NCBI RefSeq assembly: GCF_900182585.1
Contig: NZ_FXTM01000015.1
Span: 1-47,972, forward strand
Direction: 5' to 3'
Length of the DNA: 47,972 nt
DNA from: Balnearium lithotrophicum
GTDB taxonomy: Bacteria > Aquificota > Aquificia > Desulfurobacteriales > Desulfurobacteriaceae
Every line of letters begins with the position of its first letter. The stretch's first letter is position 1. This document shows, piece after piece, positions 31,658 through 38,497 of this stretch. The notes under the pieces were generated by a model. It was not told the DNA's origin, made no database searches, and was given only the letters and a program-made list of their open reading frames with translations. Position numbers and translations under genes: made by a program.

Positions 31658-32926
31658 ATGGAAAACTGGGCGAAAATAGTAATAGGTGATAGTCGGAAAA
31701 TGTTAGAAGTGGAAGATGACTCTGTTCAATTAGTTGTTACTTCTCCACCATACTGGTCTATTAAAAATTATGGTACGGAAAACCAAATTGGTTATGGTCA
31801 AACTCTTCATGAATATTTAAAGGATTTATACAGGGTTTGGAAGGAATCTTATAGGGTGCTAGAACCGGGTCGAAGGTTGGTTATTAACATAGGTGACCAG
31901 TTTGCAAGGTCTATCATTTATGGGAGGTACAAAATTATCCCTCTCCATGCAGAAATAATTGCGCAGTGTGAGGAAATTGGGTTTGATTATATGGGTTCCA
32001 TAATCTGGCAGAAAAAAACCACAATGAATACAACCGGCGGAGCAAATGTGATGGGTTCTTATCCCTACCCGCCGAATGGAATGGTTGAGATTGATTATGA
32101 ATATATTTTGATTTTTAAAAAACCGGGAAAAAGTAGGAAAGTTCCCAAGGAAATTAAAGAAAAATCCAAGTTAACAAAAGAGGAGTGGAAGGAGTTTTTT
32201 TCAGGACACTGGTACTTTGGTGGAGTTAGACAGATAGAACATCAGGCAATGTTTCCCGAAGAGCTTCCTAATAGAGTGATAAGGATGTTTTCCTTTGTAG
32301 GTGAGACGGTTTTAGACCCTTTTTTAGGAAGCGGAACTACGGCGAAAGTAGCTTTAGAACTGAATAGAAATGTAATTGGCTACGAGATAAATGAGGACTT
32401 TTTGCAGGTTATAAGAAAAAAATTGGGAATGGATAACTTGGATTTATTCAGTAGGAGGATTGAAGTAATTAAAAGGAAGAGTCAGATAGTTCCAGAAATT
32501 GTGGATTATGTTCCCAGAATACAGGATGCAAAGCCCCTTATTGAGCCTGATAAATTAAGGTTCAATAAAAATAATTTGTATAGAGTGGTTGATATTTTGG
32601 AGGATGGAAAATTAAAATTGGATTCGGGGCTTACTGTTAAGTTGCGGGGTATTGTTATAACGGATTTAAAAAGAGCTATTAAGTATTTGAAAGAATATGT
32701 TTTAAAGAAGAAAGTTTATTTGAAATTTGATAAAAATTATGTGGCTAATGAGGATTTTTTAGAAGCTTACGTATACTTAAAAAACAGAATTTTTATCAAT
32801 GCTCAATTAATTAAGCTTGGAACTGCAACAACAGAAAGGCATATCAATTTTGACTTTAAAACTAAATTTCTAAAGTTAGAGAAAGAGAATCTAAAGTTGT
32901 GTAGTGAGGATTTAGGTGGAATTTAA
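31658..32926 (+). CDS. Type II DNA methyltransferase (N4-cytosine or N6-adenine) with C-terminal SNase-like domain
   Basis: This 422-residue protein has the catalytic motif TSPPYW (residues 28-33) before the SAM-site motif DPFLGSGTTAKVALEL (220-235), the order of beta-class amino-methyltransferases; an adjoining MjaI-like endonuclease suggests CTAG. Residues 306-412 resemble a staphylococcal-nuclease fold: GLTVKLRGI, KKVYLKFD, EAYVYLKN and FINAQLIKLGTA follow the SNase strand and helix pattern. The catalytic Arg/Asp/Glu (SNase R35, D40, E43, R87) are not evident, so this domain may bind DNA without cutting it. It overlaps the endonuclease by 11 bases and is more AT-rich than its neighbours. 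Confidence 0.88.
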   Translation: MENWAKIVIGDSRKMLEVEDDSVQLVVTSPPYWSIKNYGTENQIGYGQTLHEYLKDLYRVWKESYRVLEPGRRLVINIGDQFARSIIYGRYKIIPLHAEIIAQCEEIGFDYMGSIIWQKKTTMNTTGGANVMGSYPYPPNGMVEIDYEYILIFKKPGKSRKVPKEIKEKSKLTKEEWKEFFSGHWYFGGVRQIEHQAMFPEELPNRVIRMFSFVGETVLDPFLGSGTTAKVALELNRNVIGYEINEDFLQVIRKKLGMDNLDLFSRRIEVIKRKSQIVPEIVDYVPRIQDAKPLIEPDKLRFNKNNLYRVVDILEDGKLKLDSGLTVKLRGIVITDLKRAIKYLKEYVLKKKVYLKFDKNYVANEDFLEAYVYLKNRIFINAQLIKLGTATTERHINFDFKTKFLKLEKENLKLCSEDLGGI

Positions 32927-33536
32927 AATAAAAACAGAGGAAATAAGAAAGTTAATGGAAATTGATGCTCCTGAGTTCCCAAAATATGCAACTCAAATAC
33001 TTAACTTGGCCAATCAAAATGCTCAAGCAACCAGACCTAAGGTTGTAGGGCAGATGAGTGAACTCATAAAGGAATTTTCAGGTAAAACTTTAGAGGAATG
33101 GGAAGAGTGGTATTTAGAACATTATCCTGATGCGATAGAGAAGGCTACTAAAAAAGTTTTGGAGATGGTTGATAATTTTAGGAAAGTTATAAACCAAATT
33201 GATGAATCAATGGTTAGAAAGTGGATTAGAGACTTAGTAATTGTAAAAACTTTCGTTGGCTTAAGGTTCCAGGAAGCAATATTGAGGAAAGTTGCTGATA
33301 AGTTCAGCTTAGATTATAGACTTTCAACGCCTGAGGAGGAAAGTAAAGGTATTGATGGTTATATTGGAAGTGTTCCTGTAAGTTTGAAACCTAAAAGTTA
33401 TCAAGCTAAAGAAATGTTACCTGAAGAAATAAAAATAGACATCATTTACTATGAAAAGCAAAAGGATGGATTAAAGATTACAATTCCTCCTGCTTTAGAG
33501 AAAAAACTCAAAATTCAAAGGAATAATGAGGCTTAG
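32916..33536 (+). CDS. MjaI-type type II restriction endonuclease
   Basis: This 206-residue protein resembles the MjaI restriction enzyme family, whose founding member recognises CTAG. Shared-looking stretches are KLMEIDAPEFPKYATQILNL, ARANQNAQ-like LANQNAQATRPKVVGQMSEL and GKTLEEWEEWY. A likely PD-(D/E)xK-type centre is GIDGYIGSVPVSLKPKS (D147, S156-L157-K158). It starts at GTG 32916 inside the methyltransferase's end, so cognate methylation would be translated first. Recognition of the family is from memory of sequence features; specificity is inferred. Confidence 0.82.
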   Translation: MEFKIKTEEIRKLMEIDAPEFPKYATQILNLANQNAQATRPKVVGQMSELIKEFSGKTLEEWEEWYLEHYPDAIEKATKKVLEMVDNFRKVINQIDESMVRKWIRDLVIVKTFVGLRFQEAILRKVADKFSLDYRLSTPEEESKGIDGYIGSVPVSLKPKSYQAKEMLPEEIKIDIIYYEKQKDGLKITIPPALEKKLKIQRNNEA

Positions 33537-33565: not shown

Positions 33566-34600
33566 GTGAGTTTAGCTGCTGGAGTTGACTATAGGGATTT
33601 AGAGAGACTCTTTGACTACTTTGAGATAAGGGATAAGGATGTTAAGAATCTAAGGTTTTTGGGAAATATCCTCCTTCCCTACAAGGAGGAGTTTGCAGAT
33701 GCCTTTTATGACAATTTAATGAAGTTTGAAGATATAAAGGAATACATTCCTGAAGCCAAACTTCAGAGGTTAAAGAGAACAATAAAGATTTGGTATGAAA
33801 GGCTCTTTTCCGGAAGGTACGACTCTGAGTATCTTCTGTATCTCTTGAGAATTGCGAAGGTTCATGTTGAGGAAGGTATTCCTCCTCACTACATAATCGT
33901 TGCAATGAACTTCGTTAGTCGTTTCTGTAGCCGCCGCATAGCAAACTTTTTCTCCGAAAAGGCAAAGGTCTTCTTTGAGGACTACAGGAGAGAGCAGGAG
34001 AAGGTCTGTGACCCTTCAAAGGCTGAGATTGTAGAGGGATTTATTCTTGAGGAAGTCTTTGAGAGGATGGAGGACCTAAACAGGTCCTTGAGGAAGATTC
34101 TTGCCTTAAACGAGGACGTTTTAGTCTCCTACTACGTTGATGCAGAGCTCCGAACCTTCTTTGAGGCCGGAAAAGTAGAGAGGGCTGCAATTAAGTTCAG
34201 CAAGAAGTTTGCAGTTTTTATGGATATAGCAATTCTTATAGGTTTAATGTTCCTTGCAGTTTTCGTTATCGCGCTCTTTGGAATGGATATCTACCACTTC
34301 TTCCACGGAGACCTTGCTCACAGCTTAATTGCTGCAATGGGCGACCTCCTTATCCTCTGGACCGTTTTGGAGCTCCTCAACAGCGAGATAAAGTTCATGT
34401 TGGGTGGGGAACTTGCCGTTTCTGCATTTGTCAGCGTTGCACTGGCGGCAACAATAAGGGAAGCCCTTGTTGTTTCGTTGGAGCACGGTAAACCTATAGA
34501 GTTCAAACTGGGAATTGGAGCCTTAATTCTCATCTTGGGTATTGTTTACGGGATAGTTAAGTGGTTTGAAATAAAGAGAAAAAAGAAGTTGGGAGAGTAG
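33566..34600 (+). CDS. Globin-domain (globin-coupled-sensor type) protein fused to a PsiE-like membrane domain
   Basis: This 344-residue protein begins with a sensor-globin/protoglobin domain (1-185). It has LPYKEEFADAFYDNLM, YERLFSGRYDSEYLLYLLRI and AKVHVEEGIPPHYIIVAM, where H100 is the likely haem-proximal histidine. Four predicted membrane segments follow at about 215-238, 253-272, 283-306 and 315-333. The segment DLLILWTVLELLNSEIKFML with a REAL-VVSLEH tail resembles the PsiE family. It would be a membrane-anchored oxygen/NO/CO sensor with unknown output. The start is GTG 33566 behind TTGGAG. It lies between the R-M pair and dapB (3 bases). Confidence 0.78.
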   Translation: MSLAAGVDYRDLERLFDYFEIRDKDVKNLRFLGNILLPYKEEFADAFYDNLMKFEDIKEYIPEAKLQRLKRTIKIWYERLFSGRYDSEYLLYLLRIAKVHVEEGIPPHYIIVAMNFVSRFCSRRIANFFSEKAKVFFEDYRREQEKVCDPSKAEIVEGFILEEVFERMEDLNRSLRKILALNEDVLVSYYVDAELRTFFEAGKVERAAIKFSKKFAVFMDIAILIGLMFLAVFVIALFGMDIYHFFHGDLAHSLIAAMGDLLILWTVLELLNSEIKFMLGGELAVSAFVSVALAATIREALVVSLEHGKPIEFKLGIGALILILGIVYGIVKWFEIKRKKKLGE

Positions 34601-34603
34601 GAA

Positions 34604-35386
34604 ATGGTAAAGCTTGCCGTTGCAGGTGCTAAGGGTAGGATGGGTTCATTAATAGCAAATTTAGCCCTTCAGGAGAGTGATTTTAAGCTTGTAGGGGTTA
34701 CGGAAAAACCCGACTCTGAGTTCATAGGGAGCGAATTTTCAAGAGGGGTTAAATTCTACAGTTCTTTAAGGGAGTTTGAGGAAAGGCCGGATGTTCTCAT
34801 TGACTTTACTACTCCTAATGCGACCTTAAAAAACATTGAAGATGCAAAAACTTTGGGGGTTTCCCTTGTAATAGGAACTACGGGATTTTCTGAAGAGGAA
34901 AAAAGGATAATAGAGGAAGCCTCCAAGGTTATTCCGATAGTTTTCTCTCCCAACATGAGTTTAGGGGTAAACATTTTATTTAAGATAGTTGGAGAAGTTA
35001 CAAGAGCTTTAAAGGATAAGGGTTACGACGTAGAGATTTTTGAAATTCACCACAGGTTCAAAAAGGATGCCCCTTCTGGAACTGCAGTGAGGCTGGCAGA
35101 GATAGTTGCAGAAAATTTAGGTAAAAATTTGGAGGATGTAGCCGTTTATGGAAGGAAAGGACTCGTAGGGGAGAGAAAGCCCGATGAGATTGGAATTCTC
35201 TCCTCAAGAATGGGGGACGTTGTGGGAGACCATACAGTATTCTTTGGAACGTTGGGAGAGAGATTAGAGCTCACCCACAGGGCAACGAGCAGGGAGACCT
35301 TTGCTAGGGGAGCTCTAATTGCCGCTAAGTGGGTCTTTGATAAGAAACCCGGACTCTACACAATGTTTGACGTTTTGGAGATTTGA
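34604..35386 (+). CDS. dapB: 4-hydroxy-tetrahydrodipicolinate reductase
   Basis: This 260-residue enzyme has the NAD(P)-binding VAGAKGRMGSLIANLA, VLIDFTTPNATLKN, IGTTGFSEEE, SPNMSLGVNIL and the catalytic region EIHHRFKKDAPSGTAVRLAE with the two His and Lys. It reduces the DapA product in lysine and diaminopimelate synthesis. It starts 3 bases after the globin/PsiE gene and overlaps a small membrane ORF by one base (TGATG). Confidence 0.96.
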   Translation: MVKLAVAGAKGRMGSLIANLALQESDFKLVGVTEKPDSEFIGSEFSRGVKFYSSLREFEERPDVLIDFTTPNATLKNIEDAKTLGVSLVIGTTGFSEEEKRIIEEASKVIPIVFSPNMSLGVNILFKIVGEVTRALKDKGYDVEIFEIHHRFKKDAPSGTAVRLAEIVAENLGKNLEDVAVYGRKGLVGERKPDEIGILSSRMGDVVGDHTVFFGTLGERLELTHRATSRETFARGALIAAKWVFDKKPGLYTMFDVLEI

Positions 35387-35646: not shown

Positions 35647-35702
35647 TGTCGATAGTTCTTGGGCTGTTTCTCTATATGCTTAAAACAAGTCCTACTAAAT
35701 GA
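35616..35702 (+). CDS. Very small single-membrane-segment peptide (tentative)
   Basis: A 28-codon frame, MVEILFVLFLMSIVLGLFLY then MLKTSPTK, overlaps the previous ORF in another frame. A GAGG ribosome binding site lies about 8 bases upstream. The sequence is almost a pure membrane helix with a basic end. It could be a real microprotein or chance; its overlap and length do not allow more. Confidence 0.3.
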   Translation: MVEILFVLFLMSIVLGLFLYMLKTSPTK

Positions 35703-35728
35703 CAAAAATTTTTTTGAGGAGAAAATGT

Positions 35729-36454
35729 ATGTTTGAGGTAATTCCTGCAGTTGATATAAAAGGTGGAAAGTGTGTGAGGCTCTATCAGGGAAGGGCAGAT
35801 AGGGAGAAGGTCTACTTTGAAAACCCCGTTGAGGTTGCAAAAAGGTGGGAAAATTTAGGAGCTCGTAGAGTCCACGTAGTTGACCTCGACGGTGCATTTG
35901 AGGGCATTCCTAAGAACCTGCCAATAGTTAGAGAAATAGTAGAGGAGCTCTCCATTCCCGTTCAGTTTGGAGGAGGGGTAAGGACTTTAAAAGCCCTTGA
36001 GGAGCTGTTTAAAGCCGGAGTTGACAGAGTGGTTGTTGGAACGGTTGCCGTTGAAAATCCAGAGCTCTTTAAAGAAATGGTTAAAGAGTTCCCAAACAAA
36101 GTTGTTGTTGGGATAGATGCAAAGAACGGTATTGCAACGACAAAGGGCTGGGTAGAGCTTTCCGGAATTCCTGCAGTTGAACTTGCAAAAAGGGTTGATG
36201 ATGAAAACATTTGGGGATTTGTGTATACCGACATATCAAGGGACGGAACTCTAACGAGTCCAAACTTTGAGGAAGTAGAGAAGTTTGCATCGTCGGTTAC
36301 TCACCCAGTTATAGCATCGGGCGGAGTTTCAAAATTAGAGGATTTAGTTAAACTTTCCAAAATTAAAAATGTTTTTGGTGCAATTGTTGGAAGGGCTCTC
36401 TACGAGGGAACTGTTGACCTAAAGGAAGCCCTTGAGGTTTTAAGTGGAGCTTAA
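35729..36454 (+). CDS. hisA: ProFAR isomerase HisA
   Basis: This 241-residue (beta/alpha)8 barrel catalyses the fourth step of histidine synthesis. It has VIPAVDIKGGKCVRLYQG with the first catalytic Asp, VVDLDGAFEG, QFGGGVRT, the second Asp in YTDISRDGTLTSPN, and VIASGGVSKLEDL. I start at ATG 35729, whose GAGGAGAAAATGT spacing fits; an in-frame ATG 30 bases upstream would add a non-conserved tail. It overlaps the RNA ligase by 11 bases. Confidence 0.95.
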   Translation: MFEVIPAVDIKGGKCVRLYQGRADREKVYFENPVEVAKRWENLGARRVHVVDLDGAFEGIPKNLPIVREIVEELSIPVQFGGGVRTLKALEELFKAGVDRVVVGTVAVENPELFKEMVKEFPNKVVVGIDAKNGIATTKGWVELSGIPAVELAKRVDDENIWGFVYTDISRDGTLTSPNFEEVEKFASSVTHPVIASGGVSKLEDLVKLSKIKNVFGAIVGRALYEGTVDLKEALEVLSGA

Positions 36455-37574
36455 CCTCGATAGAGCTCTAAAGGAGATAGAAAACAACAAGTACTTTAAA
36501 GTATTAGAAAGGGAAAACTTAACGAAGGTATCCTATAGGTACAATGCCCCTTTTGTCTTTGATTCTCCTTTAAAGAGAGAACTGAGGGGAATTACTTTTG
36601 ATAGGAAAACGGGAAGTGTAGTTTCCCGTCCTTTCCATAAATTTTTCAATTTAAACGAGGTTGAAGAGACAAAGGAAGAGAGATTAAGGGGAGAGTATAT
36701 TTTTAGAGAAAAACTTGATGGAACGATGCTCCATCCTGTTTTAATAAACAACAAAGTAAAGCTTTTAACCCAAAAGGGTTTCTCCAATCCTTACACCGAA
36801 AAGGGAGAGGAACTTTTAAAAAAGAACGATAACTTACTGAACTTTACTAAGGAGCTACTAAACAAAGGATTTACTCCGATTTTTGAGCTTATCTCTCCCG
36901 AGTTTCAACTTGTAATTCCGTACGATAAGGATGAGCTTTTCCTAACAGAAATTAGAGAAAACAAATCAGGTAGATACTATCTCGAAGAGTGGGAAAATGA
37001 AATTAAAGAGAGAGGAATAAAGATTCCTCGTAAATTTTACGGGAGACTTAAGGATTTACTTAAGCTAATTGAGAATAGAGAAAGTATAGAGGGATTTGTT
37101 TTAAAGGATTTCTCTAAGAAAGAGCCTTTTCCCCTTTTTGTTAAGGTCAAATCTCCTTGGTACGTAGAGCATCACTACGCTTTTACGTACCTTAATAACA
37201 TTCCAGACCATAAATTTTTTAACATATTCCTTCAGGGAAGAGTTGACGACATTTTCTCAAGAGTAACTAATGAAAATTTAGTAAGAGAAAAGGAAGAAAG
37301 GTTAAAAAAACTAACAAACCTTTACACTGATTTACTGAGTTTGGTAGAAAAATTATCTGAGGTTTATGGTTCTTCTAAATTTGACGAGGTATTTGAAAGA
37401 GAAGTTAAGAAGCTGAGGAAAAAATATGGAAGGGATTTTAGTAAGTTAAAAATTCAAGAAAATTATCTAAAGGAAGCTGTCAGAATAGCAAAGACCGGCG
37501 GGAAGTACGAGTCCTATTTAGGAACGAAGTTCTACACAATGTTGAAAACAAAAGAAATAGAATTGTTAAAATAG
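36444..37574 (+). CDS. T4 Rnl1-like RNA ligase
   Basis: This 376-residue nucleotidyltransferase has the motif I lysine in REKLDGTM (K90). Before it is the Rnl1-like approach GITFDRKTGSVVSRPFHKFF; after it come motif III FELISPEF (147-154), motif IV EGFVLK (216-221) and motif V VKVKSPWYVEHH (233-244). The region after motif V (about 250-376) is charged and helical. Such ligases seal 5'-phosphate/3'-OH RNA ends after nuclease damage. No kinase/phosphatase partner is adjacent. The GTG start lies inside the end of hisA. Confidence 0.82.
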   Translation: MELNLDRALKEIENNKYFKVLERENLTKVSYRYNAPFVFDSPLKRELRGITFDRKTGSVVSRPFHKFFNLNEVEETKEERLRGEYIFREKLDGTMLHPVLINNKVKLLTQKGFSNPYTEKGEELLKKNDNLLNFTKELLNKGFTPIFELISPEFQLVIPYDKDELFLTEIRENKSGRYYLEEWENEIKERGIKIPRKFYGRLKDLLKLIENRESIEGFVLKDFSKKEPFPLFVKVKSPWYVEHHYAFTYLNNIPDHKFFNIFLQGRVDDIFSRVTNENLVREKEERLKKLTNLYTDLLSLVEKLSEVYGSSKFDEVFEREVKKLRKKYGRDFSKLKIQENYLKEAVRIAKTGGKYESYLGTKFYTMLKTKEIELLK

Positions 37575-37603: not shown

Positions 37604-38497
37604 ATGAGGTTTAAAGTTTCCGTTCCAGCCTCCACAAGTAACTTAGGACCTGGGTTTGATGCATTAGGACTTGCCTTGAGCCTTTACAATGAATTTCTGT
37701 TTGAGCCGTCAGACTTTTACTCTGTAGAGATTGAGGGAGAGGGAAAGGAGGAGCTCCCCAAGGATGAAAGCAACCTCTTCTTAAAAACTTACAGAAGTAC
37801 AATGGAGTACTTAGGTCTAAACCAACCCATAAAGGTTAAACTTATAAACAGAATTCCCTTAGGAAGAGGACTTGGAAGTTCTGCAACGGCAATTGTAGGG
37901 GGAATACTTGCCGCTGAGAGAATTTCCGGAAAGAAACTCTCCCTTCCAGAGGTCATTGATATTGCCTTTAAGTTTGAACCACACCCTGACAACGTTCTAC
38001 CTGCATACACCGGTGGATTTGTTGTAGCCGCAACGAACGGAGACCTCCACTACATAAAACTTGACTGGCCTGACGATTTGAAGGTTGTAATTGTTGTTCC
38101 TGAACTCTTCCTCTCCACAGAGGATTCCCGCTCTGTTCTTCCAGAGAGCTATCCTAAGAAGGACGTTATTTTTAACATCCAAAGGGTTGCTCTACTTTTA
38201 GGAGCCCTCCAAAAGAGGGACTACGGGCTTTTAAAGGAGGCAGTTAAGGATAGAATCCACCAACCTTACAGGTGTGACCTCATTCCTTCCTTCTGGGAGG
38301 TTGTTTCAGAAGGGTACAAAGCCGGAGCTTATGCAGTTTACCTGTCCGGCGCCGGAAGCTGTATTGGAGCTCTCGCAGACGGTAACTTTGACGAGATAGG
38401 AAGGGCGATGTGTAACGTTTTTGACGCTCTCGGAATAGAATCGAGGTACCTCGTTTTAGATGTTGACAGAGACGGGGCAAAGATAGAGGAGCTCTAA
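37604..38497 (+). CDS. thrB: Homoserine kinase
   Basis: This 297-residue GHMP kinase phosphorylates homoserine in threonine synthesis. It starts KVSVPASTSNLGPGFDALGL, has the ATP loop PLGRGLGSSATAIVGG (about 86-101), FEPHPDNVLPAYTGGFVVA, and the C-terminal GAYAVYLSGAGSCIGALADG. AAGAGGTTAACT lies before the ATG. Its stop codon overlaps the stop of rsmH on the opposite strand. Confidence 0.95.
   Translation: MRFKVSVPASTSNLGPGFDALGLALSLYNEFLFEPSDFYSVEIEGEGKEELPKDESNLFLKTYRSTMEYLGLNQPIKVKLINRIPLGRGLGSSATAIVGGILAAERISGKKLSLPEVIDIAFKFEPHPDNVLPAYTGGFVVAATNGDLHYIKLDWPDDLKVVIVVPELFLSTEDSRSVLPESYPKKDVIFNIQRVALLLGALQKRDYGLLKEAVKDRIHQPYRCDLIPSFWEVVSEGYKAGAYAVYLSGAGSCIGALADGNFDEIGRAMCNVFDALGIESRYLVLDVDRDGAKIEEL

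Follow-up and report, generated by a model that had tools for sequence, protein, structure and literature searches.

A predicted Rnl1-family RNA ligase gene directly behind hisA in Balnearium lithotrophicum and other Desulfurobacteriaceae

Introduction

To our knowledge, the physiological roles of bacterial 5′-3′ RNA ligases are poorly known, and what is known about these enzymes comes mostly from those of phages. Rnl1 enzymes require 5′-phosphate and 3′-hydroxyl ends (PMC11494293; PMC7824862). In T4, the ligatable ends are made by Pnkp after cleavage by PrrC (PMC3400036). In the archaeon Thermococcus, an ATP-dependent Rnl converts C/D box sRNAs into circles (PMC9014305), and the enzyme of the Thermus phage phiLo (AYJ73970) has been characterised as a strong ssDNA ligase (PMC11780859). 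Among the papers listed by our open-access literature search, none linked an RNA ligase with Desulfurobacterium or Thermovibrio, and none on HD-Pnk was found.

The present analysis concerns a stretch of 47,972 nucleotides from Balnearium lithotrophicum (contig NZ_FXTM01000015.1), a thermophilic bacterium of vents; the stretch is called the window below. A preliminary description of this DNA had placed an Rnl1-type ligase gene, here named rnl, between hisA and thrB.

Results

Identification of the rnl gene

The gene under study is as follows.

36444..37574, forward strand: rnl, predicted ATP-dependent RNA ligase of the Rnl1 family, 376 aa, GTG start, identified by profile and fold matches

Its reading frame is intact, with 0 internal stops. 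Upon profile search, the protein passed the family test of Pfam PF09511 (RNA_lig_T4_1) with E=5.6e-27 and 95.5 bits (cut-off 28.3), and it matched PHROG 562 with E=1.6e-49. T4 Rnl1 (2c5u) was its sole convincing PDB relative by sequence (E=1.3e-18). The AlphaFold model of the protein had a pLDDT of 94.7, and its three top PDB fold matches were all T4 Rnl1 (E 3.4e-19 to 5.6e-18); the full-length fold alignment spans most of the protein, but with an rmsd of 14 Å. The two profile families and T4 Rnl1, by sequence as well as by fold, all agree with the Rnl1-type ligase proposed in the preliminary description. No DNA-ligase or capping-enzyme family, a match to which had been named there as counter-evidence, was found among the profile matches listed for the protein. 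Against TIGR02308, the NCBIfam equivalog of T4 RnlA, it scored 72.2 bits, which is below the cut-off of 242.25. This indicates a member of the Rnl1 family and not an equivalent of RnlA.

The gene is present once per genome, and a profile search of all ORFs of at least 60 aa found no second Rnl1-family ORF in the window. A Pfam TRF (telomere factor) match on the C-terminus (E=1.1e-4) was below the cut-off, fell on a charged helical stretch and was set aside as chance. Judging from sequence, rnl very likely encodes a cellular member of the Rnl1 RNA ligase family.

Active site and C-terminal domain

The catalytic part of the protein has the following features.

36444..37163, forward strand: nucleotidyltransferase domain, residues 1-240, with every catalytic motif (from model and homology)
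36711..36713, forward strand: K90, predicted AMP-accepting lysine, motif I EKxDG (E-K-L-D-G), aligned with T4 Lys99
36885..36887, forward strand: E148, motif III FE, aligned with T4 Glu159
37089..37094, forward strand: E216-G217, motif IV EG, aligned with T4 Glu227-Gly228
37143..37151, forward strand: K234 and K236, motif V KxK, aligned with T4 Lys240 and Lys242

The motif set reported earlier, namely K90, FELI (147-150), EGFVLK (216-221) and VKVKSPWY (233-240), was recovered in full. We then have ten residues of T4 Rnl1 which we take to be those that matter: R54, K75, F77, K99, D101, G102, E159, E227, K240 and K242. All ten checked positions (10/10) are the same in rnl, where they are, in the same order, R48, K66, F68, K90, D92, G93, E148, E216, K234 and K236. 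These ten residues showed no variation across 10 orthologues.

From what is known of the family, K90 would take AMP from ATP, the AMP would then be passed to the 5′-phosphate of an RNA end, and attack by the 3′-hydroxyl would seal the strand. With this chemistry, rnl would act on breaks having 5′-phosphate and 3′-hydroxyl ends.

The remainder of the protein forms a second domain.

37164..37571, forward strand: C-terminal, mostly helical domain, residues 241-376, predicted to bind RNA, order-specific

Homology to T4-like and Thermus-phage ligases extends over residues 5-285, and no sequence match to either was detected beyond residue ~285. Modelled alone, the C-terminal domain had a pLDDT of 93; it is helical and similar in size to that of T4 Rnl1. 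Upon search of the isolated domain against the PDB, no match fell below E=0.89 and T4 Rnl1 was not among the 50 matches listed, although Foldseek may miss small helical domains. Because the domain has no recognisable kinship to that of T4 Rnl1, the tRNA preference of the T4 enzyme should not be carried over to rnl by analogy. The C-terminal part is also less conserved, with a mean majority share of 0.52 for residues 286-376 versus 0.70-0.75 for residues 1-285. The domain has invariant motifs, HY..YL.NIP.HK.F close to its start and G.K.Y...K close to its end. The targets of the enzyme would lie in single-stranded or loop RNA and may be selected by this domain of its own.

The locus and its conservation

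Around rnl, the following features were identified.

34604..35386, forward strand: dapB, in the conserved order dapA-(protoglobin/PsiE)-dapB-hisA-rnl
35699..36454, forward strand: hisA, upstream neighbour, 11-nt overlap with rnl (likely true start 35726, by comparison with relatives)
36434..36437, forward strand: GAGG, 6 nt ahead of the GTG start and within the 3′ end of hisA, candidate ribosome-binding site of rnl
37604..38497, forward strand: thrB, downstream neighbour of rnl in its own genome only

The overlap with hisA and the GAGG ahead of the start codon bear out the translational coupling to hisA that had been suggested. In 12 Desulfurobacteriaceae (Aquificota) genomes, rnl lies directly behind hisA, with an overlap of 1-11 nt. 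The gene order dapA, protoglobin-PsiE, dapB, hisA, rnl is widely retained in this family, and in one genome (G006) hisA-rnl alone remains of it. Conservation of the neighbourhood had been proposed as a check, and its outcome favours a settled cellular gene. The placement between hisA and thrB is true of the B. lithotrophicum genome, but the hisA side alone is conserved, while in relatives thrB is on other contigs or far from rnl. As the preliminary description had also stated, the genes nearest rnl hold no phage gene cluster.

In a genome of genus g3 (G007), rsmH is directly behind hisA; in the window, rsmH comes after thrB. This junction makes a loss of rnl at exactly that site plausible, not proven. 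In the second family of the order, two small genes putatively encode DNA-binding proteins and one of them overlaps rnl; the flanks of rnl are genes that we take, by reading their sequences, to be rpe-like and pyrD-like. A frame of 2910 aa around rnl in G013 was an artefact of masked N.

Two other features of the region were observed. A type II restriction-modification pair (31658-33536) lies 3 kb upstream of rnl, between dapA and the protoglobin gene. Its endonuclease is of the MjaI type (PF09568, 1.1e-72), its DNA methylase has a tail weakly resembling staphylococcal nuclease, and the pair is missing at the equivalent spot in the relatives compared. The gene at 33566-34600 encodes a protoglobin fused to a PsiE-like membrane domain, and is kept between dapA and dapB family-wide, amid amino-acid synthesis genes.

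Distribution, selection and origin

In a search of 101 genomes, rnl was present in five of the seven Desulfurobacteriaceae genera (g1, g2, g4, g5 and g6) and in the order's only other family (g8); distant copies were found in two further families. It was absent from genera g3 and g7, including a one-contig g3 genome. It follows that the lineage can do without the gene. The backbone of the species tree built for gain versus loss in g3 and g7 came out without resolution. Across Aquificota, the Pfam Rnl1 family was matched in 18 of 136 genomes. Relatives in the named collection, with 63-64% identity, were labelled Thermovibrio sp. or Desulfurobacteriaceae.

In four genomes of the genus, dN/dS was 0.08-0.15 for rnl and 0.01-0.03 for hisA. 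These values indicate that rnl is under purifying selection and functional, and that it is evolving faster than hisA. The rnl sequences of the order formed one clade (support 100/100). In the tree of 72 rows this clade joined phiLo and Lalka8, both Thermus phages, together with a single MAG labelled Neisseriaceae (95/87); in the tree of 37 rows the Thermus-phage grouping had a support of 41/65, and long branches were involved. Trees joining the clade to one or the other of the remaining Aquificota copies were not rejected (AU p 0.18 and 0.42). The phylogeny thus indicates that rnl is old within the order, its deep source differing between trees.

The grouping with phiLo and Lalka8 in the larger tree would fit an enzyme that joins ends of ssDNA, as the phiLo enzyme does, or of mixed nucleic acids. 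We regard this as very unlikely for rnl, as the smaller tree does not support the grouping, and ssDNA joining by Rnl1 enzymes is an in-vitro property that is not known as a physiological role.

Phage genes make up many of the family members in the databases searched, as would suit a phage gene captured recently and having no cellular role. Such a capture is scarcely credible here, given orthologues at one locus in five genera, purifying selection and an invariant active site, together with the lack of phage neighbours and of any phage relative above about 36% identity. A prophage origin was rejected on the neighbours, the synteny and the absence of a close phage relative. Gene trees and synteny taken together indicate that rnl is a chromosomal, vertically inherited gene of the order holding Desulfurobacteriaceae, and not a recent phage arrival.

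That Rnl1-type ligases are best known from phages, as stated in the preliminary description, is right and incomplete: chromosomal Rnl1 was also found in numerous Alphaproteobacteria and in a small number of other lineages. A cellular Rnl1 is thus not peculiar to this order. In three Desulfurococcales/Thermoproteota MAGs (L185, L186 and L187), we also observed Rnl1-like proteins that form a tight clade on a very long branch, and an undecaprenyl-diphosphate-synthase-like gene adjoins the Rnl1-like gene there. In L039 and L040, a phage Rnl1 is in two separate ORFs ~0.75 kb apart, which may mark an insertion.

Possible partners and other RNA ligases

T4 Rnl1 belongs to the same family, and its role has been described (PMC3400036; PMC11494293): with T4 Pnkp it acts against PrrC damage. 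By analogy, rnl could reseal tRNAs that toxins or phage-triggered nucleases have cleaved. Polynucleotide kinase genes often adjoin the phage relatives of rnl, and an HD + P-loop kinase adjoins Rnl1 in one genome (G085). The B. lithotrophicum genome encodes one VapC-sized PIN protein. VapC toxins leave 5′-phosphate and 3′-hydroxyl ends, and such ends need no healing. However, no PrrC/RloC-type nuclease matched over the PF13166 (AAA_13) cut-off in this genome, and no HD-Pnk homologue was found in it or elsewhere in Desulfurobacteriaceae. Its P-loop kinase matches were weak and partly assigned, the best being the adenylate kinase inside the window. The end-healing search in this genome covered HD-Pnk and P-loop kinases. 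PIN proteins do not follow the presence of rnl, the C-terminal domain does not match that of T4 Rnl1, and the operon partner of rnl is hisA and not a toxin. We consider tRNA repair against anticodon nucleases a real but tentative possibility.

PIN toxins, AAA_13 nucleases and Cas10 were all rejected as phyletic partners, since none of them correlated with the presence of rnl. Matches to Cas10 in the B. lithotrophicum genome were weak, with no strong one among them.

RtcB was found in 16 of 16 Desulfurobacteriaceae (f1) genomes searched, both with and without Rnl1, and was not found in f2. This indicates that there is no trade-off inside Desulfurobacteriaceae, and RtcB was ruled out as an alternative ligase accounting for the presence or absence of rnl. 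Among 26 genomes searched, Rnl3 (TIGR01209) was restricted to the related lineage f4, which is without Rnl1, and no genome had both; neither the B. lithotrophicum genome (G000) nor the other 15 f1 genomes gave a TIGR01209 match. The exclusion of Rnl1 and Rnl3 tracks lineage lines and may be a coincidence.

Because the archaeal Rnl circularises C/D box sRNAs, a role in RNA processing is conceivable also for rnl, which would then join or circularise the ends of particular cellular RNAs. The housekeeping, co-translated location retained across genera and the presence of Rnl3 in f4, where Rnl1 is missing, are in keeping with this. The faster evolution of rnl relative to hisA and the two genera without it speak against it, and we rate this role as rather unlikely.

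Two arrangements of distant Rnl1 genes were observed elsewhere in Aquificota. In G085 (Hydrogenothermaceae; L060:5354-7730), the start of Rnl1 is no more than 2 nt from the end of a gene whose protein combines an HD domain at its N-terminus with a P-loop kinase at its C-terminus, that is, an HD-Pnk-like end-healing enzyme. Homologues of this protein are also encoded in G059 and, as a split version, in G066, both without an Rnl1 match. With an end-healing partner beside it, the G085 gene ties a cellular Rnl1 to the repair of RNA breaks. In G080, of another Aquificota family (L059:4124-11437), Rnl1 is directly upstream of a Cmr-like (type III-B CRISPR) cluster on the same strand; the cluster was identified by a RAMP match, and this arrangement was seen in one genome only.

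Discussion

It is probable that rnl is a vertically kept, chromosomal, ATP-dependent ligase of the Rnl1 family that would seal 5′-phosphate/3′-hydroxyl breaks in cellular RNA, its activity, substrate ends and role all being predicted. Our confidence in this explanation is lowered because searches of the genome itself identified neither a healing enzyme nor a nuclease to match the ligase. Such a ligase may serve in maintenance, by repair or processing of cellular RNA with tRNA as the leading candidate, and its role may be comparable to that of Rnl3 in lineage f4. A bolder proposal, which we think unlikely, is that Rnl1 has become, in this order, an enzyme dedicated to processing or circularising RNA, with an RNA-recognition domain of its own, replacing the Rnl3 of the related lineage and acting on defined RNA targets during growth near 70-75 °C.

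The gene adds one case to an already known family, as cellular Rnl1 has already been seen in Alphaproteobacteria. Its fixed address and purifying selection in five genera of a family with cultured members (Thermovibrio, Desulfurobacterium) make the purpose of a cellular Rnl1 testable. The group may also be a source of thermostable RNA ligases, perhaps ssDNA ligases, from bacteria instead of phages. Two leads towards cellular RNA-repair modules are the HD-Pnk-like/Rnl1 pair of Hydrogenothermaceae and, in another Aquificota family, the Rnl1-Cmr neighbourhood.

Comparison with known systems

T4 RNA ligase 1 (Rnl1, RnlA; PDB 2c5u, 5tt6, 9do4) has its active-site residues, nucleotidyltransferase domain and overall layout in common with rnl. 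The two differ in that identity over the fold alignment is 21-22%, rnl is below the TIGR02308 cut-off and its C-terminal domain is not recognisably related. Moreover, rnl is cellular and has no adjacent Pnkp.

The phiLo ligase (Tph ssDNA ligase) and TS2126-type enzymes represent a thermophilic Rnl1 branch, which is weakly favoured as the sister of the rnl clade. Ligases of the phiLo type gave a profile match to rnl with E=8.7e-27 over residues 5-279. However, they are phage genes with 29% identity to rnl, most of the C-terminal domain cannot be aligned, and the sister link is not firm.

Rnl3-type enzymes (TIGR01209; Aquifex 3qwu, Thermococcus/Palaeococcus) are likewise ATP-dependent RNA ligases of thermophiles and structural neighbours of rnl. 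They are a separate family, absent from every Desulfurobacteriaceae genome searched.

The chromosomal Rnl1 of Alphaproteobacteria (for example Mesorhizobium, Methylobacterium, Ruegeria) resembles rnl in being a bacterial chromosomal gene, and some of the copies also have a recurring address. In L162, L165 and L167 (Jiella, Aurantimonas and Mesorhizobium), the gene lies directly behind what we take, again by reading the sequences, to be a ruvA-like gene, apparently within the ruvCAB region. These proteins have about 26-36% identity to rnl and form a clearly distinct lineage in the tree.
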